Positions 27,299 to 53,297 of a stretch of 56,246 bases of DNA are shown piece by piece (the stretch's first letter is position 1; each line of letters begins with the position of its first letter). The stretch is from positions 1-56,246 of the forward strand of contig NZ_AQPH01000017.1 in the NCBI RefSeq assembly GCF_000442515.1, written 5' to 3'. A program made the position numbers and the translations under genes. This DNA is from Magnetospirillum fulvum MGU-K5 (GTDB lineage: Bacteria > Pseudomonadota > Alphaproteobacteria > Rhodospirillales > Magnetospirillaceae). The notes beneath the pieces were generated by a model, which did not search any database, was not told where the DNA came from, and worked only from the letters and a program-made list of their open reading frames with translations.

Positions 27299-28711
27299 AT
27301 GTCCGACGACGTCCAGAAGGTCCTCGAACTGATCCAGGAAAATGACGTCAAGTACGTCGATTTCCGTTTTACCGATCCCCGCGGCAAGTGGCAGCACACC
27401 GCCCAGCACGTTTCCACCGTCGATGCCGACATGCTGAACGAAGGCATCATGTTCGACGGCTCGTCGATCGCCGGCTGGAAGAGCATCAACGAATCCGACA
27501 TGATTCTGATGCCGGACCCCTCGTCGGCCGTGATGGACCCGTTTGCCGCCCAGGCCCAGTTGATCATCAACTGTGACATTGTCGAGCCGGCGACCGGCCA
27601 GCTGTACGACCGCGATCCGCGCTCGATCGCGAAGCGCGCCGAGGCTTATGTCAAGTCGTCGGGCGTGGGCGACGCGACCTATTTCGGCCCCGAAGCCGAA
27701 TTCTTCATCTTCGACGACGTCAAGTACTCGGTCGGGATGAACAAGGGCTACTACGAGCTGCTGTCGGAAGACGGCGTCGAGTCGCAGGGCAAGGACTTCC
27801 CCGAAGGCAATCTGGGCCACCGTCCGGGCGTCAAGGGCGGCTACTTCCCGGTTCCGCCGGTGGATGGTCATGTCGACATCCGCGCCGAGATGCTGACCGT
27901 GATGGGCGAAATGGGCCTGCCGATCGAAAAGCATCACCACGAAGTGGCCTCGTCGCAGCACGAACTGGGCATCAAGTTCGGCAGCCTGGTTCAGGCCGCT
28001 GACTGGATCCAGATCTACAAGTACGTCGTCCACAACGTCGCCGCGTCCTATGGCAAGACCGCGACCTTCATGCCGAAGCCGATCTATGGCGATAACGGCT
28101 CGGGCATGCACGTCCACCAGTCGATCTGGAAGGCGGGTAAGCCGCTGTTCGCCGGCACCGGCTATGCCGACCTGTCGGAAACCGCCCTGTACTACATCGG
28201 CGGTATCATCAAGCATGCCAAGGCGATCAACGCCTTCACCAACCCGCTGACCAACAGCTACAAGCGTCTGATCCCCGGCTTCGAGGCTCCGGTGCTGCTG
28301 GCTTACTCGTCGCGTAACCGTTCGGCTTCGTGCCGCATTCCCTACTCGGCTTCGCCGAAGGGCAAGCGCGTCGAAATCCGCTTCCCCGATCCGGGTGCCA
28401 ACCCGTACCTCGCCTTCTCGGCGATGCTGATGGCTGGCCTCGACGGTATCGCCAACAAGATCCACCCCGGCGATCCGATGGACAAGAACCTGTACGACCT
28501 GCCGCCGGCCGAGCTGGCCCAGGTCCCGACCGTGTGCGGTTCGCTGCGCGAAGCTCTGGACAGCCTGAAGGCTGACCACGACTTCCTCGTCAAGGGCGAC
28601 GTGTTCTCGAAGGACTTCATCGAGAGCTACATCGACCTGAAGTTCGAAGAAGTCTATCGCTTCGAACACACCCCGCATCCGGTCGAGTTCCAGATGTATT
28701 ACAGCGTTTAA
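27299..28711 (+). CDS. glnA: Glutamine synthetase type I
   Basis: 470 residues, class I-beta. DGSSIAGW, the metal and glutamate motifs ([25 protein letters not shown]), the ATP-binding region ([16 protein letters not shown]), and the adenylylation loop NLYDLPPAE with Tyr399, the target of GlnE. It makes glutamine from glutamate, ammonia and ATP. CAGGAAAG precedes the start. The last codons (CAG ATG TAT TAC AGC GTT TAA) coincide with the left end of a genomic island; a second copy of this tail with other synonymous codons lies at 42554-42572, so the final residues of this gene may be island-derived while the protein stays unchanged. Confidence 0.97.
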
Positions 28712-28758
28712 TCGCTGCGAGGTTTTCCGCGCTCTTCACTGCCCCCCGACAGGAGGAT

Positions 28759-28781
28759 GGTGGACCAGCTCGGTGGACCAG
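28759..28781 (+). repeat. Paired GGTGGACCAG 10-mers, left end
   Basis: Two GGTGGACCAG copies (28759-28768 and 28772-28781), 13 bases apart start to start, with TC following the second. The same pair with the same spacing occurs at 42454-42476, just upstream of the integrase. Possible integrase or excisionase binding sites. Confidence 0.6.
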
Positions 28782-28789
28782 TCAAGAAG

Positions 28790-28820
28790 CCCCCGTCAGG
28801 AAACTGGCGGGGGTTTTTTC
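28790..28820 (+). terminator. glnA terminator (left copy)
   Basis: CCCCCGTCAG (28790-28799), GAAA loop, CTGGCGGGGG (28804-28813; one G-T pair), then TTTTTT. A strong intrinsic terminator 78 bases after the glnA stop. A near-identical copy is at 42649-42676. Confidence 0.9.
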
Positions 28821-28834
28821 TTGTCCGATGTTTG

Positions 28835-29203
28835 GGCGAAAAAATGTGAGCGGGTATCAAGTCGAATGCTGATACCCGGTTCCCCCCATGGGGGGGTGTC
28901 ACCTGCCTCCGCTGGGATGGCTGCTGACTGGGTGCCCTGTCTCCTGTCCCGCCTGTCGTCGGTGCCGCTCTTCCTTGCCCTGCCGGCTATCACCAACCTG
29001 CCCCGGCCTGTGCGTGTGTGCATGGCCCTGGGAGATGCACGATGCACACGGGTCGCGGCTCGTTCCGACCACCCGTCTTGTTGGGGTAAACCCCAGCAAG
29101 CCAGTTCGGCGAGACACTTTTCGCGTCTTGTATGGGTTGATTTCCAATTTCCAAGACGGTACGGTGACGTGGTCTAAAGCTAAACAAGACAGTGAGACGT
29201 CCC
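28835..29203. other. Non-coding left end of the island with inverted repeats
   Basis: 369 bases without a convincing gene. It holds CGGGTATCA (28851-28859) / TGATACCCG (28870-28878), the palindrome CCCCCCATGGGGGG (28882-28895), and CGTCTTG (29124-29130) / CAAGACG (29152-29158) just upstream of the resolvase gene. Short open frames here have no ribosome site or protein-like composition. Confidence 0.5.
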
Positions 29204-29761
29204 ATGAGCAAGATCGGATATGCCCGCGTCAGCACCACCGACCAGGACACCGGCATTCAGGTTGCCGCACTTCGCGCCGCCGGCTGTGAGGTAGTCCGCG
29301 AGGAGAAGGCCAGCGGCACCAGCACCGAGGGCCGCACCGAGCTTCAGACCATCCTGGAATTCCTGCGGCCCGGTGACGTGCTGACCGTCACCCGCATCGA
29401 CCGCCTCGCCCGCTCCATCGCCGACCTCCAGACCATCGTGCGGACCATCCGGGAGAAGGGCGCGGCGCTGGCCTGCACCGAACAGCCGGTGGACACCAGC
29501 ACCGCCGCCGGCAAGGCGTTCCTTGACATGCTGGGCGTCTTCGCCGAGTTCGAGACTAACCTCCGCCGTGAACGCCAGATGGAAGGGATCGCCAAGGCCA
29601 AGGCGGCGGGGGTCTACAAGGGCCGCAAGCCCACCATCGACCCCAAGGAAGTCCGGGCGCTGAGAAGCCAAGGGCTAGGAGCAACCGAGATTGCCAAGCG
29701 GCTGGGGATCGGCCGCGCCTCTGTCTATCGGGTGCTGGAGCAGCAGCAGCCCGCAGACTAA
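29204..29761 (+). CDS. Serine recombinase (resolvase/invertase)
   Basis: 185 residues, the size of the small Tn3-resolvase/Hin family. Catalytic Ser in KIGYARVSTTDQD (Ser10), LTVTRIDRLARSIADL with the active-site Arg residues, EFETNLRRERQMEGI (E-helix), and a C-terminal helix-turn-helix (LGATEIAKRLGIGRASVYRVL). It should cut and rejoin DNA at paired sites, either resolving dimers of the element or inverting a segment. ATG 29204 is chosen because family members start with MSKIGYARVS; a frame start 12 bases earlier is less likely. Inverted repeats upstream could be its target site. Confidence 0.92.
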   Translation: MSKIGYARVSTTDQDTGIQVAALRAAGCEVVREEKASGTSTEGRTELQTILEFLRPGDVLTVTRIDRLARSIADLQTIVRTIREKGAALACTEQPVDTSTAAGKAFLDMLGVFAEFETNLRRERQMEGIAKAKAAGVYKGRKPTIDPKEVRALRSQGLGATEIAKRLGIGRASVYRVLEQQQPAD

Positions 29762-29786
29762 CCACCCGCCAACATCCTTCTTCAAG

Positions 29787-29820
29787 GCCCTCGCCGGGTC
29801 CTCCTGGCGCGGGCTTCTTC
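29787..29820 (+). terminator. Terminator after the resolvase
   Basis: GCCCTCGCCGGG (29787-29798), TCCT loop, CCTGGCGCGGGC (29803-29814), pairing at 10 of 12 positions, followed by TTCTTC. It starts 26 bases after the resolvase stop. Confidence 0.6.
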
Positions 29821-30344
29821 GTCTCTGAGGGAGGCAGCCCTGGTCAATTTTACACATAGAAAACGTTGTTTGTGCCTGGCTCTCTGGGGGCGGGTACGGG
29901 ATTAGGTTGCACCTATGTACACCCTGACCCGGAACCACGGTGCCCCTTCAGCCCTCCGCCCCGTTGCAACCAGCCTCCCAAAGCTTGGGCTTGGCGGGCC
30001 GTGTCCGCGTCTGATCGCGCCAACAGCGCCAGATCGGCACGTCACCGATAAACGCCCAAGAAGGACGTTGAGCGGGCAAATGCCGTCTGGCTGGGTAGGT
30101 AGTGGGGCGACCTTCCACTGCCTCACCGGCCTTCTGGCGGGCTTTGATGGGCATGTCGATTAGGTTGCCCCACGGCATATAGAACCCCTTCCGCCGCCAG
30201 AGCAGCGGAGGGGCGCACCATCAACCCCGCTTCCCACCCTCTGCCGTCCAATCGACTGGGGCCGATGCCGCAAGGTGTCGGCCTCTTTCTTTGGGCTGCG
30301 ACGGGAGGGGGGCGGGAAGCCAACCCCAACACGAAAGGAAGACC
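29821..30344. other. Non-coding stretch in the island
   Basis: About 520 bases with no supported gene on either strand. An AT-richer patch (29839-29872, TTTTACACATAGAAAACGTT) could hold a promoter. The 11-mer GATTAGGTTGC occurs twice in direct orientation (29900-29910 and 30158-30168). Otherwise nothing identified. Confidence 0.45.
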
Positions 30345-31004
30345 ATGAACACTCTCCCCACCATCCGCCCCCTCGACCGCCTCGCCCGGTGCATCAACGA
30401 GCAACAGGCGCAGATCGAAGCCCACGCCAGGAACATGCTGTTCTTCGCCAAGGTGGCCGGCGAATTGCTGATCGAGGCCAGGGACAGTAAGGAACGCACC
30501 GAACCCTTCAAGGAATGGGTGCCCAGGTACTGCCGCAAGGCCAACGGCCAGCCTCTCAGCTATGTCCAGGCCACGAAGTACATGAACGTGGCCCGTCGCT
30601 GGGATGATCTGAAAGGTTTCGCCGACGAAACCTGCACCAACTCCATCGACGCCTTCCTCGGATACCAGAAGGCCAACCCAGCCCCCAAGTCCAACCTTCC
30701 GACCTTCACCGAGGACGACGCCGAGTACGCCCTGAAGATCGCCGCCCGCCTGGACAGCGACTTCGAAGGGGAGCGCGACGTCGCCGCCGACAAACTCAAC
30801 ACCTTCGCCAAGCAGCACGGGATGACCGGCGAAGAGTTGGTCGAGAAGGCGAAGAAGCTGCGCCCGGCCCAGCACCTCACCAATGTCGAAGCCGGGAAGC
30901 AGGAACTCCGAGCAGAAATTCTTGCGCCCTTTCAGTCCATGTCGAAGCAGGAACTGCTCGACGTGATCTTCAATCTCATCGTCAAGTTGTCCAGAGAGGC
31001 CTGA
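30345..31004 (+). CDS. Unknown island protein, DUF3102-like
   Basis: 219 residues from ATG 30345 with AAAGGAAG upstream. Helical and charged. The segment IEAHARNMLFFAKVAGELLIEARDS followed by FKEWV resembles the DUF3102 pattern (helix with A-x3-G-x2-L, then a Trp) found in plasmid and phage proteins; this is tentative. The C-terminal half is helical with LPTFTEDDAEYALKIAARL and ends in KQELLDVIFNLIVKLSREA. It is followed by only 2 bases before the next gene, so they form an operon. Function unknown. Confidence 0.7.
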   Translation: MNTLPTIRPLDRLARCINEQQAQIEAHARNMLFFAKVAGELLIEARDSKERTEPFKEWVPRYCRKANGQPLSYVQATKYMNVARRWDDLKGFADETCTNSIDAFLGYQKANPAPKSNLPTFTEDDAEYALKIAARLDSDFEGERDVAADKLNTFAKQHGMTGEELVEKAKKLRPAQHLTNVEAGKQELRAEILAPFQSMSKQELLDVIFNLIVKLSREA

Positions 31005-31006
31005 CC

Positions 31007-31633
31007 ATGCACTACATCCGCAGGGTCACCGACCTGGAAACCGGGGAGGTGAAGACCATCAGTCTCGGTGAACACCTGCCCTTCACCGAAGCCGCCGCCA
31101 AATTCGGCGTCACCCGTCCGACCCTCGTCAAGGTCCTGCTTCAACTGGGCTTGGTCCAGAAGGAGTTCGACACCGTGGCGCGGGAGAACCGCTACCGTCT
31201 CCATCCCGAGGCCGAGAAGAAGGGGCTGGGCAAGCGTCTGATGGGGCCTCACGGTCCCTTCGACGTTCTCTGTCCGTCCGCCCTGGAGTGGCTTGAGGCC
31301 GACCTGAAGGCCATCCTCGCCGCCAGCACCTTCGACCGGGCCACGGTCACCGCCCTTCAGGCCCTCGACGCCTACGACGCGGAACGGCTCTCCAAGCTGG
31401 ATGTCGAGGGGAAGGTCTTGTGGCTGATCTATCACTTCCCGGACCTGCCCGTCCGTCAGATGGCGCAGGGCCTGGGGGTCAGCGAGAGGCTCGTTCACCG
31501 CTACCTGACCAAGCGGCGGGATCAGCTTGAACGGGCCAGCAAGAGGATGGCGGGGGAGGTCTTCACCCCGGCCGAGCCGGAAGTGGAGCCGAAAGCCGAA
31601 CCCGAGGCAGACCGGCAATCCCTCGCCGCGTGA
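31007..31633 (+). CDS. Helix-turn-helix DNA-binding protein of the island
   Basis: 208 residues, starting 2 bases after the previous stop. Two helix-turn-helix-like segments are visible: FTEAAAKFGVTRPTLVKVLLQLG (about residues 26-48) and PVRQMAQGLGVSERLVHRYL (about 147-166). The C-terminus is a Glu/Pro-rich tail. It may regulate the island or act in initiation of its transfer or replication, but no family was recognised. Same strand and coupled with the DUF3102-like gene. Confidence 0.7.
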   Translation: MHYIRRVTDLETGEVKTISLGEHLPFTEAAAKFGVTRPTLVKVLLQLGLVQKEFDTVARENRYRLHPEAEKKGLGKRLMGPHGPFDVLCPSALEWLEADLKAILAASTFDRATVTALQALDAYDAERLSKLDVEGKVLWLIYHFPDLPVRQMAQGLGVSERLVHRYLTKRRDQLERASKRMAGEVFTPAEPEVEPKAEPEADRQSLAA

Positions 31634-31846
31634 CCCCTGAAGCCGGCCTTGAGGTCGTAGGTATTACAGGCGGTGTGAACACCCCCGAAACAGACCCATC
31701 CGCCGTCTGACCCCGGCGGGGCTGCTCGTCCAGCCCGCCCCCCTGATCAACCCGCCCCACGTCGAGACACGCCCCGGCCCCGTACAGGATGCCGGCTGAT
31801 GGCGCTCGTCTCGGCGTGGGCGTCATCCAACGAGGACACCATCACC

Positions 31847-32557
31847 ATGACCCATCTTCATTCCCCCAGCGGCCGGCGCTGCTCGGTGCCCGGCTGCACC
31901 GTCCCGGCCCGAGGTCGAGGCCCCCATTGCGAGACCCACCGCCAGCGCAAGCGCCGCAACGGCCACGTCGATCAGCATCCCGTCACCAAGGCCACCCTGC
32001 GGCCCTATGTCGCCAGGGTCCGCAAGATCGTCGAGCGCGACCAGACCGGCCAGCTTGCCGCCGCCCTGCACCAGCTTCACGACCTGATCGGCGCCCGGGG
32101 GCGGCAGATCGTCGCCGACGCGGCGAGCGGCAGGCCGGGCAGCAAGTGGGAGCGGATCGCCGCCCAGGAGACGGCCCAGGTGGTCGCGGACACCGACGCC
32201 ATCGGCTGCGCCGCCACCCTTGCCGCCCTGTTCCTGCTGCGGGACGAGGAGCCGGGGCACTTCGCCAGCGACGAGGGCTTCCGGTTCCAGCTTGCCCGCG
32301 CCTTCCGCGCCCAGACCAGCCGGGCCTTCGGGTCGTACTGGGATCTCGAGAACGGGCGGACCAAGACCGTCTACCGCGACACCCCGCCCCGTGCCACGGC
32401 GCTTCTCGCCGGCTGGCTGGTCGAAGCCTACGCCCGCTTCGCCGCCCACGTCGTCGCCTGGGACCGGGCCGAGAGGGCGAAGCAGGCCGAAGCCCACGCA
32501 GCCATCGACGCCGCCTTCGCGGCGATGTCCCCTGCCTCCCGTCCGCCTTGCGCGTGA
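31847..32557 (+). CDS. Unknown protein with an N-terminal Cys/His zinc-binding pattern
   Basis: 236 residues from ATG 31847. Residues 11-36 have C-x4-C-x10-C-x2-H ([20 protein letters not shown]), like a small zinc knuckle, followed by a basic stretch (RQRKRRNGH). The rest is alanine-rich and helical with many Arg residues ([17 protein letters not shown]). It probably binds nucleic acid. It lies 213 bases after the HTH gene and 67 bases before hsdM on the same strand. No family recognised. Confidence 0.65.
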
Positions 32558-32624
32558 TGGTGGATCCCCTTACCCTGCTTCACCCCTTGTGTTCACACCT
32601 TTTCGTCGAGGATCATTCGTTTCC

Positions 32625-34367
32625 ATGAACCAGCAGGCCCTGTCCGCCTTCCTCTGGTCGGTCGCCGACCTTCTGCGCGGCGATTACAAGCAGTCGGACT
32701 ATGGCAAGGTCATCCTGCCCTTCACCGTTCTGCGTCGTCTCGATTGCGTCCTGGCGGGGACCAAGCCAGCGGTGCTGGCCGAGCACAAGGCGAAGACGGC
32801 CCAGGGCCTCAATCCCGATCCGTTCCTGCTGCGGGTGGCGGGGCAGAGCTTCTTCAACGTCTCGCCGCTCGACCTCAAGACCCTGATGGGCGACCAGGAC
32901 CACATCCGCGAGAACCTCTTCGGCTACCTGGGCGGGTTCTCGGCCGCCGTGCGCGACATCTTCGAGCGGTTTGAGTTCGCCACCCAGATCGAGCGCCTCG
33001 CCAAGGCCAACCTGCTCTATCAGGTCACCGAACGCTTCACCCAGGTCGATCTTCACCCCGATGCGGTCAGCAACCACCAAATGGGGCTGGTGTTCGAGGA
33101 ACTGATCCGCAAGTTCGCCGAACTGTCGAACGAGACGGCCGGGGAGCACTTCACCCCGCGCGAGGTCATCCGCCTGATGGTCAGCCTGCTGTTCATCGAG
33201 GATGACGACATTCTGTCGAAGCCCGGCGTGGTGCGCACCATCTACGATCCCACCGCTGGGACGGGCGGCATGTTGTCGATCGCCGGCGAGTACATCGACG
33301 AGCACAACCCCAAGGCCCGCCTGACCGTCTTCGGGCAGGAGCTGAATGCGGAATCGTACGCGATCTGCAAGGCCGACATGCTGATCAAGGGTCAGGACGT
33401 GTCGAAGATCGTGTTCGGCAACACTCTCGCCGACGACGGCCACCCGGCGGAGCGGTTCGACTACATGCTGTCGAACCCGCCGTTCGGGGTCGAGTGGAAG
33501 AAGGTCGAGAAGGAGGTGCGGCGCGAGCACGAGACCCAGGGCTTCAACGGGCGCTTCGGCCCCGGCCTGCCGCGCGTCTCCGATGGCTCGATGCTGTTCC
33601 TGCTGCACCTGATCTCCAAGATGCGCCCGCTGGTCGAGGGCGGCTCGCGCTTCGGCATCGTGCTGAACGGCTCGCCGCTGTTCACCGGGGGCGCCGGCAG
33701 CGGCGAAAGCGAGATCCGCCGCCATGTGCTGGAGAACGACTTGCTGGAGGCGATCATCGGCCTGCCCACCGACATGTTCTACAACACTGGCATCAGCACC
33801 TATGTCTGGATCGTCAGCAACAAGAAGCCTGCCCATCGCAAGGGCAAGGTGCAACTGATCGACGCCACGGGCTTCTGGCAGAAGATGCGTAAAAGCCTGG
33901 GCGCCAAGCGCAAGGAACTGTCGGACGACCACATCACCGAGGTCACCCGCCTGTTCGGCGACTTCCTCGAAGCGGAGAAGGACGGCAGGCCGATCAGCCG
34001 TATTTTCAAAAACACCGAGTTCGGCTACCGCACCATCACCGTCGAGCGCCCGTTGCGCGACGAGGCGGGTCGCGTGGTGCTGGGCCAGAAGGGCAAGCAG
34101 AAGGGCAAGAAGCAGCCTGACAGCAGCCTCCGCGACACCGAGAACGTGCAGCTGACCGAGGACGTCGAGGCGTACTTCAAACGTGAGGTCCTGCCCCACG
34201 TCCCCGACGCCTGGATCGACCACGACAAAACCAAGGTGGGATACGAGATCCCCTTCAACCGCCATTTCTACGTCTTCCAGCCACCCCGCTCGCTGGAGGA
34301 GATCGACGCCGAGCTGAAGCAGGTCACCGACCGCATCACGGCGATGATCAAGGGGCTGAGCGCATGA
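32625..34367 (+). CDS. hsdM: Type I restriction-modification DNA methyltransferase subunit
   Basis: 580 residues. ATG 32625 gives the family start [22 protein letters not shown]; the frame is open upstream in other coding context. HsdM N-terminal helical domain, then SAM-binding DPTAGTGGM near residue 208 and the N6-adenine motif NPPFG near 284, followed by [15 protein letters not shown] and the target-adjacent region. With HsdS it methylates adenine in a bipartite site and forms part of the restriction complex with HsdR. First gene of an overlapping four-gene operon: the stop of hsdM overlaps the hsdS start by 4 bases. Confidence 0.96.
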
Positions 34368-35758
34368 GCTTTCCGAGATACCCGGAGTACAAGGACAGCG
34401 GCGTCGAGTGGCTGGGCGAGGTGCCGTCAGAGTGGAAGGTGCGGCGCCTCAAACAAGTGGCGACCGTGTTTCCCAGCAACATAGACAAGAAGGCTTACGA
34501 CGACGAAGCGCCCGTCCGACTTTGCAATTATGTTGACGTCTACTACAATGAAGAGATCACCGGACGCCTTGCATTCATGGAGGCAACAGCAACACCGGAG
34601 CAAGTTTCGAGGTTCACGCTTCGCGCAGACGACACGATCATCACCAAGGACTCGGAGACGGCCGACGACATTGCAATAGCCGCCCATGTCCCGCAGGATC
34701 TTCCAGGTATCGTCTGTGGCTACCACCTGTCTATGGTGAGGCCCAATCAAGGGGGACAGGGCCGTTTCATCAAGCGCCTGTTTGACAGCCGCTGGCTCAA
34801 GGCGCAATTCGAGGTCGCTGCGCGTGGTCTTACCCGAGTAGGCCTTTCCCAGTACGCCATCGACAACGTTATCGTGACCGTCCCTCCAATAGACGAGCAA
34901 GCCGCTATTGTCGCTTTCCTCGACCGCGAGACCGGCAAGATCGACGCTCTGGTGGCGGAGCAGGAGCGGTTGATCGAACTGCTGAAGGAGAAGAGGCAGG
35001 CGGTCATCTCCCACGCCGTCACCAAGGGCCTCGATCCCACCGTGCCGATGAAGGACTCGGGCATCGAATGGCTCGGCGCGGTGCCGGCGCATTGGCAGGT
35101 GAAGCGTATTAAGTATGTCGTCAAGTCAATAGAACAGGGGTGGAGTCCGCAATGTGAAGGCTATCCGGCGGATGATGACGATACATGGGGTGTATTGAAG
35201 GTCGGATGTGTCAATGGGGGGGCATTCTCTTATCTAGAGAACAAGGTGCTTCCTGAGTCTCTTGAGCCGGCTCCGTCTCTAGCGATTAAATCTGGAGACC
35301 TTCTTGTTTCCCGTGCGAACACACTAGAGCTTGTCGGTAGTGCTGCGGTGGTGGAACAAGATCATCCTCGGCTCATGCTTTGCGACAAGCTGTATCGACT
35401 GCGCCTTGATCACAATATGGCTCTACCTACCTTCCTTGCCAATTTCCTAGGAACAAGATGCGCCCGTGGGCAGATTGAACTTGGAGCCAGTGGCGCGAGC
35501 AGTTCCATGCAGAATATCGGACAAGGAACGATCCTTGAGATGCCTGTCGCCCTACCTCCCGTGGATGAGCAAAGGGAGATCATCTCTGCGATAGGGCGTA
35601 ATACGGCCAAACTTGATTCCCTGACAACCGAATCCCAACACGCCATCGACCTGTTGAAGGAGCGCCGCGCCGCCCTGATCTCGGCCGCCGTCACCGGCAA
35701 GATCGACGTGCGCGGGCTGGGCGTGTCCGTTTCCGACGACCAGAAGGTGCCGGCATGA
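34364..35758 (+). CDS. hsdS: Type I restriction-modification specificity subunit
   Basis: 464 residues. Two target-recognition domains, each introduced by a similar segment ([18 protein letters not shown] at about 10 and [18 protein letters not shown] at about 228) and each closed by a conserved helix ([40 protein letters not shown]). The recognition domains decide the DNA site; the conserved helices act as the ruler. Overlaps hsdM and the next gene by 4 bases each. The recognition domains, above all the second (about 35100-35620), are visibly lower in GC than the conserved helices, as expected for recombined modules. Confidence 0.95.
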
Positions 35759-37707
35759 AGATCTCGAACATCCTCGACCACATCGATTCCGGCCACATGG
35801 CCCTGCCCGAGTTCCAGCGCGGCTATGTCTGGAACCGCGATCAGGTGCGGGGGCTGTTCGATTCGCTCTACCGCCACCATCCGGTCGGCGGCCTGCTGGT
35901 GTGGGTGACCGAATCCAGCACCGCGCACAGCCGGGGCGACGGCCCAGTGGCCCCGGGGGTGGTGAAGCTGCTGCTGGACGGGCAACAGCGGATGACCTCG
36001 CTTTACGGCGTCATTCGCGGCCGACCGCCCAAGTTCTTCGACGGCAACGACCGCGCGTTCACCGACCTGCGCTTCAACCTGGAGAGCGAAGCCTTCGCCT
36101 TCTACCAGCCGGTCAAGATGCAGGATGACCCGCTGTGGATCGACGTGACCGAACTGATGGTCAAGGGTAACACCGGGCTGGGCGAGATTCTGGGGCGGAT
36201 CACCTCCAACCCCGATCTGGTGGCCAGGACCGGCGACTACGCCGCCCGGCTGTCGCGCCTGCTCAGTATCCAGGAGATCAACCTGCACGTCGAGGAGGTG
36301 ACCGGCAGCGACAAGACCCTCGACGTGGTGGTGGACATCTTCAACCGCGTCAACAGCGGCGGCACCAAGCTGTCGAAGGGCGATCTGGCTCTGGCCAAGA
36401 TCTGCGCCGACTGGCCCGACGCGCGGGAGCGGATGAAGGGGCATCTGGGCCGATGGGCCGAGGCCGGCTATGGCTTCAACCTCGACTGGCTGCTGCGCTC
36501 GGTCAACACCGTGCTGACCGGCGAGGCGAAGTTCCTCCATCTGCATGAGAAGTCTGCGGCCGAGGTCGAAAGCGCCCTGAAGCGGACCACCAAGCACATC
36601 GACACCTGCCTCAACCTGATCGCCGGTCGGCTCGGTCTCGATCACGACCAAGTGTTCTTCTCCCGCTTCGCCGTGCCGGTGATGGTCCGCTATCTCGATC
36701 TGCACAGCGGGCCGCTGGACGCCCGCGAGCGCGACAAGCTGCTGTTCTGGTTCGTCCAGTCGGGGATGTGGGGGCGCTTTTCGGGATCGACCGAAACGGT
36801 GATCGACAAGGATTTGGAAGCGCTGGAAGGGCCGGACGGCGGCCTGGACCGGCTGTTGCAGGGGCTGCGCCTGTGGCACGGCGGCCTGTGCGTCGAGCCG
36901 GACCACTTCACCGGCTGGAGCCTGGGGGCGCGGTTCTATCCGGTGCTGTACATGCTGACCCGCATGGGCGAGGCCCGCGACTGGGGCTCGGGACTGCCGC
37001 TGAAGGCCGGATTGCTGGGTAAGGGCAGCAGCCTGGAGGTGCACCACATTTTCCCCAAGTCGCGGCTCTACGAGAAGAAGGGCTATAGCCGCTCCGAGGT
37101 GAATGCGCTCGCCAACTTCTGCTTCCTGACCAAGGACACCAACAACGTCCTGATCAGCAACCGGCTGCCCGAGGAGTACTTCCCCGAAATCGAGGCGCGG
37201 CTCCCCGGCGCCCTGGCCTCGCAATGGATTCCCGACGATCCCGAACTGTGGAAGATCGCCAACTTCCGCGACTTCCTGGAAGCCCGCAAGGCCCTGCTCG
37301 CCGCCGAGACCAACCGGCGAATGACTGATCTGCTGCACGGCGAGACCGAGTGGCTGGGCGCTGGAGCCGCCACGGCCTCGGCGCCGGTGGTGGTGGTCGG
37401 CGGCATCACCAGCCAGGAGGAAGAGGAGCAGTTGGACGCGCTCAACGCCTGGGTCGTCGCCCGGGGACTGCCGCCGGGGGTGATCAGCTACGACTACGCC
37501 GACCCCGAAACCGGGGTGCAACGGGCGGTGTTCGATCTGGTCTGGCCGCAGGGGCTTCAGGCGGAACTGAGCCAGCCGGTCGCCGTGCTGTTGAACGAGA
37601 GCGGCGAAACCCTGGCCCTGGCCAGCGGCGGATTCCGCTGCTTCACCTCGGTGGCCGACTTCAAGCGCTACGTCGAGCGTGACATCCTGTCGGAGGACGC
37701 CGCGTGA
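35755..37707 (+). CDS. DUF262-HNH (GmrSD-like) nuclease inside the type I operon
   Basis: 650 residues. N-terminal DUF262 domain with FQRGYVWNRDQVRGLFDSL and the ParB-like nucleotide motif LLDGQQRMTSLYG (DGQQR at 75-79). A long helical middle follows, then a DUF1524-type HNH nuclease (EVHHIFPKSRLYE near 428-442, Asn in TNNVLISNRLP near 463). About 130 further residues form an extra C-terminal domain not typical of GmrSD (from LDALNAWVVARGLPPG to the end). GmrSD and BrxU proteins cut phage DNA with modified bases using nucleotide hydrolysis. The gene overlaps hsdS (ATGA) and hsdR (GTGA), so it is translated with the restriction system and probably protects against phages whose modified DNA escapes HsdR. 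Confidence 0.88.
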   Translation: MKISNILDHIDSGHMALPEFQRGYVWNRDQVRGLFDSLYRHHPVGGLLVWVTESSTAHSRGDGPVAPGVVKLLLDGQQRMTSLYGVIRGRPPKFFDGNDRAFTDLRFNLESEAFAFYQPVKMQDDPLWIDVTELMVKGNTGLGEILGRITSNPDLVARTGDYAARLSRLLSIQEINLHVEEVTGSDKTLDVVVDIFNRVNSGGTKLSKGDLALAKICADWPDARERMKGHLGRWAEAGYGFNLDWLLRSVNTVLTGEAKFLHLHEKSAAEVESALKRTTKHIDTCLNLIAGRLGLDHDQVFFSRFAVPVMVRYLDLHSGPLDARERDKLLFWFVQSGMWGRFSGSTETVIDKDLEALEGPDGGLDRLLQGLRLWHGGLCVEPDHFTGWSLGARFYPVLYMLTRMGEARDWGSGLPLKAGLLGKGSSLEVHHIFPKSRLYEKKGYSRSEVNALANFCFLTKDTNNVLISNRLPEEYFPEIEARLPGALASQWIPDDPELWKIANFRDFLEARKALLAAETNRRMTDLLHGETEWLGAGAATASAPVVVVGGITSQEEEEQLDALNAWVVARGLPPGVISYDYADPETGVQRAVFDLVWPQGLQAELSQPVAVLLNESGETLALASGGFRCFTSVADFKRYVERDILSEDAA

Positions 37708-40700
37708 GTGCCGGCCAGCCGCTCCACCGCGAGATCGCCTTCGAGGACGACATCTGCGCCCACCTCGCGGCGAACGGCTGGCTGTACGACCCGGCCGACG
37801 CGAGCGCCTACGACCGCGCCCGCGCCCTGTTCCCCGCCGACGTGCTGGCCTGGGTGCGGGACACGCAGCCCAAGGCGTGGGAGGCCTTGGTCCGCGCCCA
37901 CGGGGCGGCGGCGGAGACGATGCTGCTCGACCGGCTGCGCAAGCAGCTCGACGACCGGGGCACCCTCGACGTGCTGCGGGTCGGCCTGGAGATGGTCGGG
38001 CCGAAGGAGCCGGTGCGGCTGGCCCGGTTCCGCCCGTCCCTCGCCCTGAACCCGGCGCTTGAGGCCGAATATGCCGCCAACCGACTGCGGGTGGTGCGGC
38101 AGGTGCGCTATTCGCTCCACTCCGAGAACTGCCTCGATCTGGTGCTGTTCCTCAACGGCGTCCCGGTCGCCACCGCCGAGCTGAAGACCGACTTCACACA
38201 GCGGGTCGAGGACGCGGTGGACCAGTACCGCTTCGATCGCGATCCCCGGCCGAAGGGGCAGGCGGCGGAACCGCTGCTCGACTTCCCGCGCGGCGCCCTG
38301 GTCCATTTCGCGGTCAGCAACAGCCGGGTGAAGATGACCACCAAGCTGGAGGGGCCGGCCACCGCTTTCCTGCCCTTCGACCGGGGCAACCAGGGCGCCG
38401 CCGGCAACCCGCCCAACCCGGCCGGCCACCCCACCGCCTATCTGTGGGAGGAGGTGTGGGCGCGGGACTCGTGGCTCGACATCCTCGGGCGCTACCTCGT
38501 CACCCTGCGCGATGCGAAGAAGAAGATCGCCACGCTGATCTTCCCCCGCTACCACCAACTCGACGTAACCCGACGGCTGGTCGCGGCGGTGACGGCCGAG
38601 GGGCCGGGGCAACGCTACCTGATCCAGCATTCGGCCGGCTCGGGCAAGACCAACTCGATCGCCTGGACCGCCCATTTCCTCGCCGACCTGCACGATTCGG
38701 CCAACACCAAACTGTTTCACACCGTGCTGGTGGTCAGCGACCGCACCGTGCTGGACGTCCAGTTGCAGGAGGCGATCTTCGCCTTCGAGCGCACACGGGG
38801 GGTGGTCGAGACCATCACCAGCGACGACGGCGCCAAGAGCGGCAAGCTGGTCAAGGCCCTGGCCGGCGGCAAGAAGATCGTCGTCTGCACCCTCCAGACC
38901 TTCCCCTTCGCGCTCAAGCAGGTGCAGGAGCTGGCGGCGACCGAAGGCAAGCGGTTCGCGGTGATCGCCGACGAGGCCCATTCCTCGCAGACCGGCACGG
39001 CGGCGGCGACGCTGAAGCAGGTGCTGTCGCCCGAGGCGCTGAAGGAGCTGGAGGACGGCGGTGAGATCGATTCCGAGGACCTGCTCGCCGCCCAGATGAC
39101 GGCGCGGGCCAACCCCGCCGGGATCACCACGATCGCTTTCACCGCCACGCCCAAGGCCAAGACGCTGGAGCTGTTCGGCCGCCGCCCCAGCCCCGAGGCG
39201 CTGCCCGCCCCCTTCCACGTCTACTCGATGCGTCAGGCGATCGAGGAGGGCTTCATCCTCAATGTGCTGAAGAATTACACCCCCTACAAGCTGGCGTTCC
39301 AGCTCGCCAGCAATGGCCGGGAATGGGACGAGCGCGAGGTCGAACGGGCCGCCGCGATGAAGGGGCTGCTCGCCTGGGTACGGCTGCATCCCTACAACAT
39401 CAGCCAGAAGGTCGCCCTGGTGGTCGAGCACTTCCGCGACACCGTGGCGCCGCTGCTGGGCGGCCGGGCCAAGGCGATGGTGGTCACCGCCAGCCGCCGC
39501 GAGGTGGTGCGCTGGCAACTGGCGATCACCAAGTACATCAAGGAGAAGGGCTACAAGATCGGCGCCCTGGTCGCCTTCTCGGGCGAGGTCAAGGACGAGG
39601 AGCTTGGCCCGGACGGCTTCACCGAGCACAGCGCCACCCTGAACCCCACCTTGCGCGGGCGCGACATCCGTGAGGCCTTCGCCACCGACGAGTTCAGCCT
39701 GCTGCTGGTCGCCAACAAGTTCCAGACCGGCTTCGACCAGCCGCTGTTGTGCGGGATGTATGTCGACAAGCGCCTCGCCGGCATCCAGGCGGTGCAGACC
39801 CTGTCGCGCCTCAACCGCGCCCATCCCTGCAAGGACACCACCTACATCCTCGACTTCGTCAACGAGCCCGAGGACATCCTCGCCGCCTTCAAGACCTACT
39901 ACGAGACGGCGGAGCTGGCGGCGACCACCGACCCCAACCTCGTCTTCGACCTTCGCGCCAAGCTTGATGCCCTCGGTCATTACGACGAGCACGAGGTCGA
40001 GCGGGTGGTCACCGCCGAGCTGGACCCATGCGGCACTCAGGCCCAGCTTCAGGCGGCCCTCGCTCCCGTCGCCGATCGGCTGATCCGGCAGTACAAGGCC
40101 CACCGGAGCGAGGAGGAGACGGCCAGGGCGGCCGGGGACGCCAAGGCGGAGAAGGACGCCAAGGATTCGATGGCTGCGCTGGTGCTGTTCAAGTCCGACA
40201 TCGGCGCCTTCCTGCGGGCCTACGCCTTCCTGTCGCAGATCTTCGACTACGGCGCCACGGCGCTGGAGAAGCGGGCGATCTTCTTCCGCCGGCTGCTGCC
40301 GCTGCTCGATTTCCAGCGCGAGCGCGACGGGGTGGACCTCTCCGGGGTGGTGCTGACCCACCATTCCCTGCGCGACCGGGGACGACGCTTCCTCGACCTC
40401 GCGGGCGGCGACGGCGAGAAACTGACGCCGATGACCGCCCCCGGCAGCGGTGCCGTGCAGGACAAGGAGAAGGCCCTGCTGGCCGAGATCATCGCCAAGG
40501 TCAACGACCTGTTCGAAGGCGAGCTGACCGACGACGACAAGCTGATCTACGTCAACCACGTCCTCAAAGGGAAGCTGCTCGAATCCGACCTGCTCGCCGA
40601 GCAGGCAGCCAACAACAGCAAGCAGCAGTTCGCCGCCTCGCCCGATCTTGCCCGCGAAATGCTCAACGCCATCATGGACGCACTCGCCGCCCACTCCACG

Positions 40701-40826
40701 ATGAGCAAGCAGGCGCTGGAGTCCGAGCGGGTGCAGCACGGACTGCGCGACATCCTGCTCGATCAGGCCGGGCTGTACGAGGCGTTGCGGGCGCGTGGGG
40801 GGCCGGGCGAATCGGCCACTCTTTGA
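37704..40826 (+). CDS. hsdR: Type I restriction endonuclease, motor subunit
   Basis: 1,040 residues, GTG start overlapping the previous stop. N-terminal nuclease motif D-x13-E-L-K (Asp145, Glu159, Lys161 in VATAELKTD), Walker A SAGSGKT near 311-316, DEAH box (VIADEAHSSQTG), and later helicase motifs (FTATPK, ANKFQTGFDQPLL, QTLSRLNRAH). The C-terminal helical region would dock on HsdM. It translocates DNA and cuts unmethylated DNA at a distance. The length is normal. The integrase gene converges 12 bases downstream. Confidence 0.96.
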   Translation: MSAGQPLHREIAFEDDICAHLAANGWLYDPADASAYDRARALFPADVLAWVRDTQPKAWEALVRAHGAAAETMLLDRLRKQLDDRGTLDVLRVGLEMVGPKEPVRLARFRPSLALNPALEAEYAANRLRVVRQVRYSLHSENCLDLVLFLNGVPVATAELKTDFTQRVEDAVDQYRFDRDPRPKGQAAEPLLDFPRGALVHFAVSNSRVKMTTKLEGPATAFLPFDRGNQGAAGNPPNPAGHPTAYLWEEVWARDSWLDILGRYLVTLRDAKKKIATLIFPRYHQLDVTRRLVAAVTAEGPGQRYLIQHSAGSGKTNSIAWTAHFLADLHDSANTKLFHTVLVVSDRTVLDVQLQEAIFAFERTRGVVETITSDDGAKSGKLVKALAGGKKIVVCTLQTFPFALKQVQELAATEGKRFAVIADEAHSSQTGTAAATLKQVLSPEALKELEDGGEIDSEDLLAAQMTARANPAGITTIAFTATPKAKTLELFGRRPSPEALPAPFHVYSMRQAIEEGFILNVLKNYTPYKLAFQLASNGREWDEREVERAAAMKGLLAWVRLHPYNISQKVALVVEHFRDTVAPLLGGRAKAMVVTASRREVVRWQLAITKYIKEKGYKIGALVAFSGEVKDEELGPDGFTEHSATLNPTLRGRDIREAFATDEFSLLLVANKFQTGFDQPLLCGMYVDKRLAGIQAVQTLSRLNRAHPCKDTTYILDFVNEPEDILAAFKTYYETAELAATTDPNLVFDLRAKLDALGHYDEHEVERVVTAELDPCGTQAQLQAALAPVADRLIRQYKAHRSEEETARAAGDAKAEKDAKDSMAALVLFKSDIGAFLRAYAFLSQIFDYGATALEKRAIFFRRLLPLLDFQRERDGVDLSGVVLTHHSLRDRGRRFLDLAGGDGEKLTPMTAPGSGAVQDKEKALLAEIIAKVNDLFEGELTDDDKLIYVNHVLKGKLLESDLLAEQAANNSKQQFAASPDLAREMLNAIMDALAAHSTMSKQALESERVQHGLRDILLDQAGLYEALRARGGPGESATL

Positions 40827-40838
40827 TCAAGTGTTGGT

Positions 40839-42443
40839 CTAATTCGCGTTCCTTCCAGCCAGCAGGTGCGACAGATCCACCCCGAAGTCGGCATCCTTGA
40901 ACAGGTCGAGCTTCATCCGGGCGGTTATCAGCTTGTTGCCGTAGCGGCCCCCGGTCATGCTCTTGACCTGATGGCCGACCAGGAACGAGACCATCCGCTC
41001 CTCGACCCCATGCACGTTCAGCAGGTAGGACGTGAACAGGTGGCGGAAGGAGTGGAACACCAGCCCTTCGCGGTCGATGCCGATGGCGCTGCGATACCAG
41101 GGGAACCACTTGCAGAACGCGCTGCTGTAGTCGCCTTCCGCGTCGGCGGTCAGTTCCGGCCATAGCCGCTCGTGCTTCACCGACCGCACATGGTCGAGGA
41201 AGCCAAGGTCGATCAGCCGGGGATGGATCGGCACCAGCCGTTCGCCGGCCTTGGTCTTGGCCTTCTTGATGTCGAAACACCACCCCCCGTCTTCCTGCCG
41301 CACGTCCTCGACCCGCAGCTTGGCGATCTCCTCGACCCTCATCCCGGTATGCAGACCGATCAGCGGGAACCAGTACTTGAAGTCCTTCACCAGAACCTTG
41401 CCCGGCCGCTCGCGCCGATCCGCCCGCCAGTGCCCGGTGTAGAGGGGCGAGGCGAACAGGGTCTTCAACTCCTCGGGGGTGAAGGCGTCGCGCTTGGGTT
41501 CGTCCTCGGGCGGCATCAGGCCCTTGGTCGGGTTGTCGATGGTGGCGACCTTCTCCGTCCTGGCCCAGTTGAACATCGCCGCCACCGCCTTGAAGTGCAG
41601 GCGGATGGTGTTGTTGGCGAGGTCGCTTTCCTCCAGCGAGCGGCGCCACGAGCGCACATCGTCGCGGGTCACCATGTCCACCGGCTTGTTGTCGAGCGTC
41701 TCGGCGAAACGGACCAACTTCGGCACCGTCTTGCGCTGGGTGTCGGCCGTCCACTTGCCGTCCTTCTCCTGCGCCGCCGTGTAGAGCCTGACGAGGTCCG
41801 GAAGCGGCGTGGACGACAGCGCCGGATCGGGTGGTGTGGACGCGGTCGAGGCAACGGCGGGCGGGATGCTGAACAGCGGGTCCTGGGGCGTCACGGCGTA
41901 GTTGCCCACCCGCCGCGCCTTGGCGATCCGGATGAACTCGATGTTGGCGCGAAGCAGCCCTCGGGCGAGGCGGCGGAAGGTCTCGCTCTTGCGGTCGATG
42001 GCGATGCCGGCGTTGGTCAGCAGTTCTTCGACATGGCCCTGGACGAGGCGGAAATCGTTGTGGGCGATGGCCTCGCGGAAGTCGCCGTCCAGGAAGCTCA
42101 GAACCTCCAGGTCGGCCTCAACCGGGTCGTCGTCGCCGCACCCCGTGTACATCGCCTTGCCGGGGCGGAGGTGGAGGCGGTCTTCCTCGTCGATGTCGAG
42201 GGCGTTGGCGAACCAAGTGCGGGCCAGCTCGTCGATCTGGTCCGGGGTCAGGTCGGGATGGGACATGGCGTGGGCGAACAATCGATCAGCAGCTACAGAC
42301 AGGGAGCGGGCGGTGCGGTGGGCCGCCCTTCGGTCGGAAGTCCGCAGGGAACGGACGAGTTCTCGTCTGCCCCATCGCCGCGCCAAGGTCAACGGAACCT
42401 TGCGCCGCCAGTGGTACGCCCCTTCACGCTTTCTCAGGTGCAT
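40839..42443 (-). CDS. Tyrosine recombinase (integrase) of the island
   Basis: 534 residues from ATG 42443 (MHLRKREGAYHWRRKVP); the frame is open to 42662 across the att region but that part is not protein-like. N-terminal arm-binding region (DUF6538-like), a SAM-like core-binding domain (LPDLVRLYTAAQEKDGKWTADTQRK), and the catalytic domain with Arg (GLHTGMRVEEIAKLR), H-x-x-R (FHSFRHLFTSYL), GH, and the nucleophile Tyr in GGRYGNK. It should integrate and excise the island. It lies at the right edge pointing inward, the usual position beside the attachment site. The paired GGTGGACCAG repeats lie about 11 bases upstream of its start and could also be its operator. Confidence 0.93.
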   Translation of the reverse strand: MHLRKREGAYHWRRKVPLTLARRWGRRELVRSLRTSDRRAAHRTARSLSVAADRLFAHAMSHPDLTPDQIDELARTWFANALDIDEEDRLHLRPGKAMYTGCGDDDPVEADLEVLSFLDGDFREAIAHNDFRLVQGHVEELLTNAGIAIDRKSETFRRLARGLLRANIEFIRIAKARRVGNYAVTPQDPLFSIPPAVASTASTPPDPALSSTPLPDLVRLYTAAQEKDGKWTADTQRKTVPKLVRFAETLDNKPVDMVTRDDVRSWRRSLEESDLANNTIRLHFKAVAAMFNWARTEKVATIDNPTKGLMPPEDEPKRDAFTPEELKTLFASPLYTGHWRADRRERPGKVLVKDFKYWFPLIGLHTGMRVEEIAKLRVEDVRQEDGGWCFDIKKAKTKAGERLVPIHPRLIDLGFLDHVRSVKHERLWPELTADAEGDYSSAFCKWFPWYRSAIGIDREGLVFHSFRHLFTSYLLNVHGVEERMVSFLVGHQVKSMTGGRYGNKLITARMKLDLFKDADFGVDLSHLLAGRNAN

Positions 42444-42453
42444 GACTGACCCC

Positions 42454-42476
42454 GGTGGACCAGTCGGGTGGACCAG
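42454..42476 (+). repeat. Paired GGTGGACCAG 10-mers, right end
   Basis: GGTGGACCAG at 42454-42463 and 42467-42476, the same 13-base period and the same following TC as the left pair at 28759-28781; only the 3-base spacer differs. They lie just upstream of the integrase start. Confidence 0.6.
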
Positions 42477-42553
42477 TCGCACGGCGCGGCTGCTCTGGGC
42501 CTGTGGGAGAGTGGCGGAAACACTGGGCTTCCGGGCTGTCGTCGCCCTCCGTC

Positions 42554-42693
42554 CCAGATGTATTACTCGGTCTAATCCGAGGAAGGGTGTCGGTGCGTCG
42601 CGGTCCTCAATCCGAGGGCAGCGGGGTGCGGAAGACCAGTCGAGAAGGCCCCCGTCAGGCAACTGGCGGGGGTTTTCTTATCCGATGTTTGGG
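42554..42693. repeat. Right attachment region (second glnA tail + terminator, attR)
   Basis: CCAGATGTATTAC (42554-42566) continues as TCGGTCTAA, so the string reads in frame as QMYYSV-stop, the same six C-terminal residues as glnA but with TCG GTC in place of AGC GTT. A terminator and the GATGTTTGGGG block follow. Upstream of the core there is no glnA homology. This is most simply the original host glnA end, displaced by insertion of the island. Confidence 0.75.
42649..42678 (+). terminator. glnA-type terminator (right copy)
   Basis: CCCCCGTCAG (42649-42658), GCAA loop, CTGGCGGGGG (42663-42672), TTTTCTT. It matches the terminator after glnA except for the loop and T-tract length. No gene immediately upstream on the plus strand needs it, consistent with it being a displaced copy. 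Confidence 0.85.
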
Positions 42694-42828
42694 GCGCTGA
42701 GTGGGTGTTGAAAGCACCGCGCTGTGGCCGGTGTAAAGTCCGCATCAACGGTTATTTACGGACTTCCGCGTCGAAGCTTTACGGTGCACGGCCGGATAAT
42801 GGCCCCCGTCATACAGACGGAGGCCATC

Positions 42829-43029
42829 ATGGAAAGCAGCGATATCGTCGGTTTGCTGATCGGCATCGCGGCCGTGGCGGCCTTGTTCGGGACGCTGGCC
42901 GATGTCTATCTGCACCCGGATCGCTTCGGCTGGCTGGAACTGCCGCCGCCCGAATCAGGTCCGGGGCGGCTTGTGGTCCGACCCGGTCTTTTTCTTGGGG
43001 AGGGGCGGGCGGCTTTCAACGAAGGCTGA
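42829..43029 (+). CDS. Small membrane protein, unknown
   Basis: 66 residues from ATG 42829 with GGAGG five bases upstream. One membrane span near the N-terminus (IVGLLIGIAAVAALFGTLADVYL), then a Pro/Gly-rich soluble tail (LELPPPESGPGRLVV). Its last 75 bases overlap the end of a convergent small gene. Not recognised; the good ribosome site and clean topology support it. Confidence 0.6.
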   Translation: MESSDIVGLLIGIAAVAALFGTLADVYLHPDRFGWLELPPPESGPGRLVVRPGLFLGEGRAAFNEG

Positions 43030-43107
43030 CGGGGCCGCCGCAACCGCTTTTACGGCGCTCTTCGGCTTTTTGGCTTCGCGGCTGTTGCGCTTCTGTCCTT
43101 TGGCCAT
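42955..43107 (-). CDS. Conserved small basic protein (MAKGQKRN-type)
   Basis: 50 residues from ATG 43107 with AGGAGA upstream; upstream codons in the same frame are not family-like. The start MAKGQKRNSREAKKPK is a pattern I know from many small proteobacterial hypothetical proteins. It is very basic throughout, so it may bind RNA or DNA; the function is unknown. Its 3' end overlaps the convergent small membrane protein gene by 75 bases. Confidence 0.7.
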   Translation of the reverse strand: MAKGQKRNSREAKKPKSAVKAVAAAPSAFVESRPPLPKKKTGSDHKPPRT

Positions 43108-43144
43108 CTCGGTTCTCCTGGTCTCGATGATAAGAGCGTTCCGG

Positions 43145-43360
43145 TTACGGCCGATCCAGACCCGCATCGTGATAGCGGTGCCATGTCGGGGCCAGATCGG
43201 CGGGATCGTCGAAATCGACATTCATCAGCGCCTGATCGAAGCGGGAGCCCGCGGCGAAGTGCCAGTCGCCGCCGCGCGGTGCTGCGTTCAAGAATTTCGC
43301 TAATCTGTCGATTCCATTCATGCCGTTGGTGACGGCAAAAGCCATGGTTTCGGTCGTCAT
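43145..43360 (-). CDS. Small unknown protein
   Basis: 71 residues from ATG 43360 with AGGAGT about 10 bases upstream; an internal ATG (MAFAVTNGMNG) is an alternative start. Contains GGDWHFAAGSRFDQALMNVDFDDP and ends WHRYHDAGLDRP; Asp- and aromatic-rich, no membrane span. Same strand as, and 37 bases upstream of, the MAKGQ gene, so possibly the same transcript. No family recognised. Confidence 0.55.
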   Translation of the reverse strand: MTTETMAFAVTNGMNGIDRLAKFLNAAPRGGDWHFAAGSRFDQALMNVDFDDPADLAPTWHRYHDAGLDRP

Positions 43361-43382
43361 GGCGCGATCACTCCTAAATCAA

Positions 43383-43508
43383 TCAGCCAAGAGTGGGTTT
43401 CAGAAAAACCCATAGAACGATCCCGACGGCGAGGAGGAATGGAACGGCAAAAGGAGGGTTCAGCAAATCTTTTGCCGTGAAGCCTGTGTTTTGATTTTTG
43501 TCATTCAT
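43383..43508 (-). CDS. 41-residue single-span membrane protein
   Basis: ATG 43508 to TGA 43383, with AGGA eight bases before the start. The protein begins MNDKNQNTGFTAKDLLNPPF, then has one membrane span (about 21-36, AVPFLLAVGIVLWVFL), and ends KPTLG. The hydrophilic N-terminus, Pro-Pro turn and single span look designed rather than random, although the gene is very short. It lies between the glucan synthase gene end and the 71-residue gene, on the same strand as both. Confidence 0.5.
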   Translation of the reverse strand: MNDKNQNTGFTAKDLLNPPFAVPFLLAVGIVLWVFLKPTLG

Positions 43509-43584
43509 TTTATTTTTCCTATTTGAGGTATTATATTAGCATGTTTTCTCCATCAAGTGTTCATCCTGATTTATTTTATATAAG

Positions 43585-51447: not shown

Positions 51448-51467
51448 CTGAACCGCGAAAGATTCGG

Positions 51468-52196
51468 CTAGCCCCCCTCCGTCTGCCCGGCCAGGATCGT
51501 TTCGATCGGTTCGGCGTTACTGCCCTCGATTTCCAGCAGGCGGTCGGCTAGATCGTTGGCCTGCTGTCTGGCGGCGCGATCTTCCAAAATCTGTTGGGCC
51601 ACCCGCCGCAAATTCTCGATCAGCACGATCTGAAGGGTGATCGAGACCGCCCACAATTCGCCGATCGTCAGCGGCTGCACCTCTTGGTACGCCCGGACAT
51701 AGCGGATCAACATCGCGGGGTCGAAGCGGCTGTCGCAATGGGCGACGAAGGCCCAGGCCAGACCGAACACGCGGGGATAGAGGGCGAACGGCCCATCGGA
51801 CAATTTGGGCAATTGCCGGTAATAGCTGCTGGGCAGATTGGATTGAATTTCGCGGATCTGGCGTTCGATCACGTAATAATTATCGACCAGCCATTCCGCC
51901 GCCGGAGTGATTGCACCGCCCTCGTCGATCACCCCCACCATGTCGCGATAGGCTCCGAGCAGAACCGCCCCGTTATCGGCCAGCCGTTTGGTCAGCGAGC
52001 GGCCCCGGATCAGCCGGGCCGTCACTGCCTGGGCGACGGCCAGACTGCGGGCATGGTCCTCGATCCGCTCGACGCTGAACAATTCCTCGCGGATCGGGTC
52101 GCGGTCGTCCCAGGGCGAGCCCGCGCGGTCCTTAGGCCCGCTCCGGGCCGGAGCGGATTTGAGTCCCGAACTGAAAATGGAAGACATCGATCGCAT
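51468..52196 (-). CDS. Cyclic glucan synthase, N-terminal fragment in another frame
   Basis: 242 residues from ATG 52196 (AGGAG 10 bases upstream; ATG 52187 alternative). The sequence ELFSVERIEDHARSL, NYYVIERQIREIQSNLPSSYYRQLPKL split over the conserved block, and YPRVFGLAWAFVAHCDSRFD is the standard N-terminus of NdvB/ChvB, which in relatives is continuous with the glycosyltransferase. It stops right after a G run (GAG GGG GGC TAG). Adding one G restores the read-through into the large downstream frame. Either a sequencing error, a mutation inactivating the synthase, or slippage on the G run. Confidence 0.85.
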   Translation of the reverse strand: MRSMSSIFSSGLKSAPARSGPKDRAGSPWDDRDPIREELFSVERIEDHARSLAVAQAVTARLIRGRSLTKRLADNGAVLLGAYRDMVGVIDEGGAITPAAEWLVDNYYVIERQIREIQSNLPSSYYRQLPKLSDGPFALYPRVFGLAWAFVAHCDSRFDPAMLIRYVRAYQEVQPLTIGELWAVSITLQIVLIENLRRVAQQILEDRAARQQANDLADRLLEIEGSNAEPIETILAGQTEGG

Positions 52197-52513
52197 CGGC
52201 CCCGGTCTCCTTGTCGCGTTGTGCGGCGGTGTCGCGGAGCTCGCGTTTGATACTGGCGAGCCGAGGCGGCGCTTGGGCCACGTCACTCCCGGAACGGGGC
52301 GACATGGCCTGGGGCGAAGGGATGAACCGTCATTGGATGGGATCGCGTGACGGCCTGTGATTCTGGCCATCATTTTTCGCAGCCGACGCGCTCTGACTCT
52401 GGGTCATGGCGTCTGGGTGGTATTGCTGCGTCGTCAATATTGCCGCATCTACGGCGTTATTATCTGTTCATCCCTGTATCTGTATTGTTGACTGTTTCGC
52501 CGGGAAGTCAACT

Positions 52514-52538: not shown

Positions 52539-52577
52539 TTTGTAATGACTTCGATCTGTTTGTAACGCTTGGCGCGT

Positions 52578-53267: not shown

Positions 53268-53297
53268 CGGTGGTCCCTGGAGTGATTGCAACGCGCC

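Follow-up and report, generated by a model that had tools for sequence, protein, structure and literature searches.

Integration at the ends of protein-coding genes is known: SGI1-type and related elements enter by an integrase at a conserved protein-gene end (trmE 3′, yicC 3′, dusA 5′) and keep the gene, and tRNA-gene islands of the Islander/TIGER type likewise target a 3′ end and restore the gene that they enter. The available parts of one database study assign 56.6% of islands to tRNA, tmRNA or intergenic sites and place many of the others within protein genes (PMC12884075), and the accessible part of a catalog for S. meliloti places 54 of 54 islands in tRNA genes (PMC11476347). Here we describe an island at the 3′ end of glnA, the glutamine synthetase gene, in Magnetospirillum fulvum MGU-K5 (contig NZ_AQPH01000017.1, of which the whole 56,246-nucleotide stretch analyzed is called the window). 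Very probably, a tyrosine integrase of the DUF6538 type has directed an integrative genomic island here to the conserved last codons of glnA, and such glnA-targeting elements would constitute a new target-site family. They differ from tRNA-gene islands in using a glnA site without a tRNA, and from SGI1-type elements in their target and in that the element would supply the C-terminal codons, stop-codon hairpin, 3′ untranslated region (UTR) and terminator; they are also smaller, at 7–14 kb versus 22.8–37.1 kb for dusA and yicC elements. A preliminary description of the window had called the glnA end an unusual target, but protein-gene targets are less rare than it implied, going by the available parts of the database study (PMC12884075).

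The two ends of the island carry the evidence. The 13-base core CCAGATGTATTAC is found at 28690-28702 and 42554-42566 and nowhere else in the window (100 shuffles gave 0), and each copy runs into its own glnA ending. At the left end glnA closes CAG ATG TAT TAC AGC GTT TAA, the copy from 42554 runs CAG ATG TAT TAC TCG GTC TAA, and both encode QMYYSV-stop. An exact pair of GGTGGACCAG repeats, three bases apart, also stands at both ends (28759 and 42454; chance mean 0.02), the left pair between the glnA stop codon and the terminator and the right pair 10 bases before the integrase start. Folding gave a hairpin and a strong terminator at each of the two glnA ends in the window. The features of the two ends are as follows.

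27299-28711, plus strand: glnA, glutamine synthetase, 470 amino acids (aa), with the Pfam glutamine synthetase N and C domains, 99% identical to the glnA products of two relatives, G035 and G041
28690-28702, plus strand: attL core CCAGATGTATTAC, one of two exact copies where none is expected
28702-28717, plus strand: hairpin around the glnA stop codon, CAGCG-TTTAAT-CGCTG, probably island-supplied; it is unlike the attR hairpin, each being self-complementary
28759-28781, plus strand: left arm, paired repeats GGTGGACCAG with period 13, putatively bound by the integrase
28789-28817, plus strand: terminator-like hairpin behind glnA, probably island-supplied
40839-42443, minus strand: tyrosine integrase with DUF6538 and Phage_integrase domains, reading inward
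42454-42476, plus strand: right arm, paired repeats GGTGGACCAG with period 13, putatively bound by the integrase, 10 bases upstream of the integrase start
42554-42566, plus strand: attR core CCAGATGTATTAC, then TCG GTC TAA, the presumably displaced end of glnA, which has a hairpin of its own
42633-42693, plus strand: likely left-arm and terminator remnant of an older island, outside the present one

Core to core, the island measures 13,864 bp and spans 28690 to about 42566. A tyrosine recombinase adjoins one end, a direct-repeat core lies at both ends and the target gene is restored, as in other genomic islands. Integrase residues R369, K394, H464, R467, H491 and Y501, which we take to be the catalytic residues of a tyrosine recombinase, are identical in four of four aligned sequences. 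The preliminary description was right that the last glnA codons recur at both ends, that an inward-facing tyrosine integrase sits at one of them and that the site is not a tRNA gene (the window contains no tRNA or tmRNA); its extent of 28690-42693 stands on the left but not on the right, where 42567-42693 is the chromosomal side.

In the mechanism that we propose, the integrase would recognize the conserved end codons of glnA and recombine inside a core of about 12–13 bases, C-NNN-ATGTAYTA, which corresponds to codons x-M-Y-Y. The incoming left half would bring the Ser-Val-stop codons together with the hairpin at the stop codon, a new 3′ UTR and a terminator, the former gene end would be pushed to the far side at attR, and the last three codons of the window glnA (AGC GTT TAA) would then be island-derived. 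Because the element supplies a replacement ending, glutamine synthetase would remain intact. The repeats flanking the core are probably integrase arm-binding sites, with a 13-bp pairing in the window.

Where the crossover lies can be narrowed by comparison with related genomes (G000 denotes the window's own genome and other G numbers its relatives). attL and attR have 13 bases in common in G000, 27 in G191, 13 in G212, 12 in G257, 9 in G254 and 12 in G027. The codon before ATG varies by host (CAG, AAG, GAG, AAA) and yet is the same within six of six attL/attR pairs, as would be expected if the shared stretch is the recombination overlap; tyrosine recombinases need matching overlap between partner sites. 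We reject an exchange within the loop of the hairpin at the stop codon: in G000, G027 and G257 the attL and attR hairpins differ in sequence and each is self-complementary, which points to an exchange left of the hairpin, and an exchange in the loop would have broken them. The hairpins of G191 and G212 fit either position.

The proposal that homologous integrases should also lie at glnA ends was borne out. Among 317 genomes of the order, close integrases (matches at E ≤ 1e-60) occurred in six, G000 included, spread over three families of the order and 43–100% identical to the window protein: 77% in G191, 67% in G031, 61% in G212, 49% in G257 and 43% in G254, the last value covering a copy truncated at the end of a contig. 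In all six, a copy of the glnA tail lies shortly before the start of the integrase, and glnA is the only place where they were found. They form one clade in a 27-row integrase tree (support 99/99; 0 of 500 shuffles). Integrase relatives of any degree were present in 30 of 55 family genomes, with G031 the only close one besides G000, and among 385 genomes drawn from the class a close integrase occurred in G000 only. Distant loci look different: 12 of 29 had a tRNA gene in their fetched flanks, which recalls the tRNA-gene islands, and one of 29 lay at glnA, a decayed copy in G047 of which 79 aa remain, with about 70% identity to the integrase of G031.

The site has been occupied by more than one island. 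Both ends and glnA lie on one contig in G191 (6732 bp), G212 (6926 bp) and G257 (7996 bp), and G027 holds a 1978-bp remnant that kept both ends and a 24-aa integrase scrap, so each of these sites shows two alternative gene ends. The first left repeat begins 64–66 bases after the core ATG in six of six attL, and the first right repeat 100–103 bases before it in seven of seven attR. Both glnA tails thus occur without the window's hsd genes, a situation that the preliminary description had regarded as damaging to the island; the objection lapses because those sites hold other islands of the same kind or a remnant of one. We propose that the glnA site is used repeatedly and that cargo is exchangeable between related islands. 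On contig 180 of G027 (L147, 1-700) there is also a second, partial glnA with another GTGTAGCAG-type left arm, which is either a second copy or another organism's; G027 is listed with 7% contamination.

Left ends also occur without islands. Of 48 glnA genes found in the family, the best 30 were fetched for end comparison, and left-arm repeats follow the stop codon in 10 of these (G000, G034, G035, G041 in degenerate form, G044, G045, G049, G020, G027 and G028) and not in the other 20, where glnA ...YYSV-stop runs into a nearby terminator. For all but G000 and G027, no right end was found in the downstream stretches searched (about 7–19 kb, about 4 kb in G044, about 20 kb more in G035 and G041, and further in G020, G049, G034 and G045), by an exact pattern that would miss a diverged right end; nor was there an integrase relative at E ≤ 1e-3 in the genomes of G028, G035, G044 (79% complete) and G045. 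These orphan left ends therefore look like remnants. Scanning the 317 genomes with the GTGGACCA form of the left end matched 13 genomes, 10 of them at glnA tails, with 0 control matches, and the GTGTAGCAG form matched three, all at glnA tails; taken together, the two scans give 13 genomes in which a left end follows glnA. Once the remainder of an island is lost, its old left end seems to persist as the 3′ UTR and terminator of glnA.

The left-end sequence might instead be an old, normal glnA 3′ UTR that islands captured, rather than a scar, and the eight genomes that have it with no detected right end would suit that idea. We regard it as improbable. The same repeats stand beside the integrase at the other end in seven of seven attR, seven of the eight orphan left ends have lost at least one of the two repeats or carry it in damaged form (G020 is intact), and on the 30-row glnA tree the repeats are patchy, with eight changes, at least seven of them forced, and 209 of 500 shuffles as low, a clustering no stronger than that of shuffled labels.

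To the right of attR, remnants of this kind appear to explain a second repeat. Terminator copies at 28789-28817 and 42648-42676 are 97% identical (88% for an overlapping 26-base stretch), and BLAST aligned the block over 62 bases at 90%. The preliminary description had reported a shared 13-base core together with this block of about 60 bases and about 90% identity; both exist, but the block is separate from the att site and probably older. It resembles the left ends of relatives (91% over 44 bases in G020, 89% over 53 in G034, 96% over 45 in G045 and 85% over 61 in G049) and contains GACCAGTCGAGAAGG, which is like the last repeat of those ends. A GTCAGG-type terminator stem is present at 10 of 12 ends with left-arm repeats and at 0 of 19 ends that lack them. 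On the right side of attR, G000 and G027 have this stem and G191, G212 and G031 do not; G257 and G254 carry left-arm-like sequence of the other repeat type there. Most plausibly, an earlier member of this island family left its left end behind and the present island then inserted before the remnant, in which case the duplicated terminator block need not be continuous with the core.

Had a single integration made both terminator copies, the att site and terminator would form one large duplicated block, for which the 90% identity over 62 bases speaks. This is very improbable, in our judgment: the repeat searches gave none in the stretch from the core to the terminator block, the distribution of the GTCAGG-type stem fits successive insertions, and so does the other-type sequence in G257 and G254. 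As for the glnA end being a chance or secondary integrase site, or the repeated tail a glnA duplication by other means, we give this next to no credence, as the shortness of the core (9–13 bases in five of six pairs) and the tRNA genes near distant integrases of the wider family are outweighed by family-wide linkage, with all six close integrases from three families at the same place, by repeats at near-constant distances and by the single integrase clade.

Several observations nevertheless weigh against an island family that targets glnA. The empty site foreseen in the preliminary description was not found: 20 of the 30 family glnA loci end without left-arm repeats, but none of the relatives examined has glnA joined to the window's own right flank. 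Window positions 42752-56246 match contig 32 of G041 and, from about 43028, parts of contig 23 of G035, and in both genomes glnA lies on other contigs, well inside them. This makes a rearrangement near attR probable, and we think that one probably took place at the right end of the island. G212 has kept only the first member of each repeat pair intact, the right-end repeat spacing in G191 is 12 rather than 13, and the 27-base shared stretch of G191 covers the hairpin, so the crossover is not placed there. The two ends of G254 lie on different contigs and match over a core of only 9 bases, and neither a left end nor glnA was found in the G031 assembly. Three GTGGACCA matches (G006, G007 and G226) are not glnA tails, and the reversed control of the GTGTAGCAG form matched four other genomes versus three real ones, which we counted because they are visibly glnA tails. 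Composition was rejected as island evidence and lends no support, since the G+C content of the island (0.651) equals that of its flanks (0.648 and 0.647).

If the glnA-targeting reading is right, a defined integrase clade has a precise, naturally conserved landing site in a gene of central metabolism, which insertion itself would restore, and left arms of islands apparently remain as the host gene's own 3′ end. The stop-codon hairpin is of interest here. Its mean stem is 5.11 in 37 distinct glnA ends versus 3.94 with the 3′ parts reshuffled (0 of 1000 as high, in a test that takes no account of sequence relatedness), and stems of at least 5 occur in 24 of the 37, with or without island ends; in the window, such hairpins lie at 28702-28717 and 42566-42581. 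That a hairpin is retained although its sequence differs between the two sides would fit a function at the RNA level. Because the left-arm repeats lie between the glnA stop codon and the terminator, transcription of glnA, which would be expected to vary with nitrogen status, may gate excision, and the islands, in taking over the 3′ UTR of a master gene of nitrogen assimilation, may replace or rewire a regulatory RNA from the glnA mRNA; we offer this as a possible but doubtful extension. In enterobacteria, GlnZ is a regulatory RNA from the glnA mRNA, according to the accessible part of one paper (PMC9731577). The site would permit testing how transcription of the target gene through an attachment site affects excision, and geneticists working with magnetotactic and related alphaproteobacteria could use the glnA end as an insertion point.

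A search of part of the literature, mostly titles and listings, turned up no paper in which glnA is named as a site of integration, and published element tables may already include it. The word glnA is absent from the available parts of PMC12884075 and PMC11476347, and the available part of another paper has seven mentions, as a typing marker.

Other kinds of element were also considered. A temperate phage or prophage was rejected: 10 phage records match the integrase, the best at 34% over part of it and none covering 80%. A scan of viral contigs, limited to close relatives, confirmed no close integrase, and none of the nine island proteins scanned with Pfam belongs to a phage structural family. 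Pfam likewise found no relaxase among those nine, with no dedicated relaxase or oriT search made. All 85 plasmid records with integrase matches fall below 60% identity, the best-ranked at about 30% from Azospirillum, and a single search of genome contigs with the integrase protein alone returned only a 22% match in an Omnitrophota metagenome-assembled genome.

A P-II gene and glnA stand before the island genes in the window, which besides the integrase are the following.

29192-29761, plus strand: serine recombinase (Resolvase, HTH_7), with relatives in the G212 and G257 islands at 50–51%
30291-31004, plus strand: uncharacterized island protein with 49% identity to a protein of the G191 island, no Pfam match
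31007-31633, plus strand: uncharacterized island protein, no Pfam match
31799-32557, plus strand: small protein containing a CSVPGC motif and sharing 36% identity over 185 aa with a G212 island protein
32622-34367, plus strand: hsdM, type I methyltransferase, start codon provisional
34364-35758, plus strand: hsdS, type I specificity subunit
35755-37707, plus strand: GmrSD_N protein, best PADLOC match HEC-05
37704-40826, plus strand: hsdR, type I restriction subunit

The GmrSD_N gene is sandwiched between hsdS and hsdR, with overlapping reading frames. The G212 island carries Vsr, a C5 methyltransferase and an Eco29kI-type nuclease, and that of G257 a Lamassu LmuA/LmuB pair (L117, 3635-6472); in the G191 island only the integrase, a recombinase and one protein related to a window protein were identified, with no defense cargo among them. 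The serine recombinase is common to the G000, G212 and G257 islands (50–62%), and the G191 version is more distant. Going by protein families, three islands (G000, G212 and G257) appear to carry anti-phage-type genes, so that one chromosomal spot would hold different systems of this type in different genomes. In cargo they are like defense islands on integrative elements, with restriction-modification in G000 and G212 and Lamassu in G257, but the glnA islands are united by target gene and integrase clade rather than by cargo.

Two minor observations concern neighboring sequence. In G041, a putative sensor kinase and response regulator, read from the DNA alone, precede the stretch that matches the window's right flank. 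On contig 34 of the window genome, another contig than the window's, two distant relatives of the integrase (L002 and L003) are at most about 3 kb apart.

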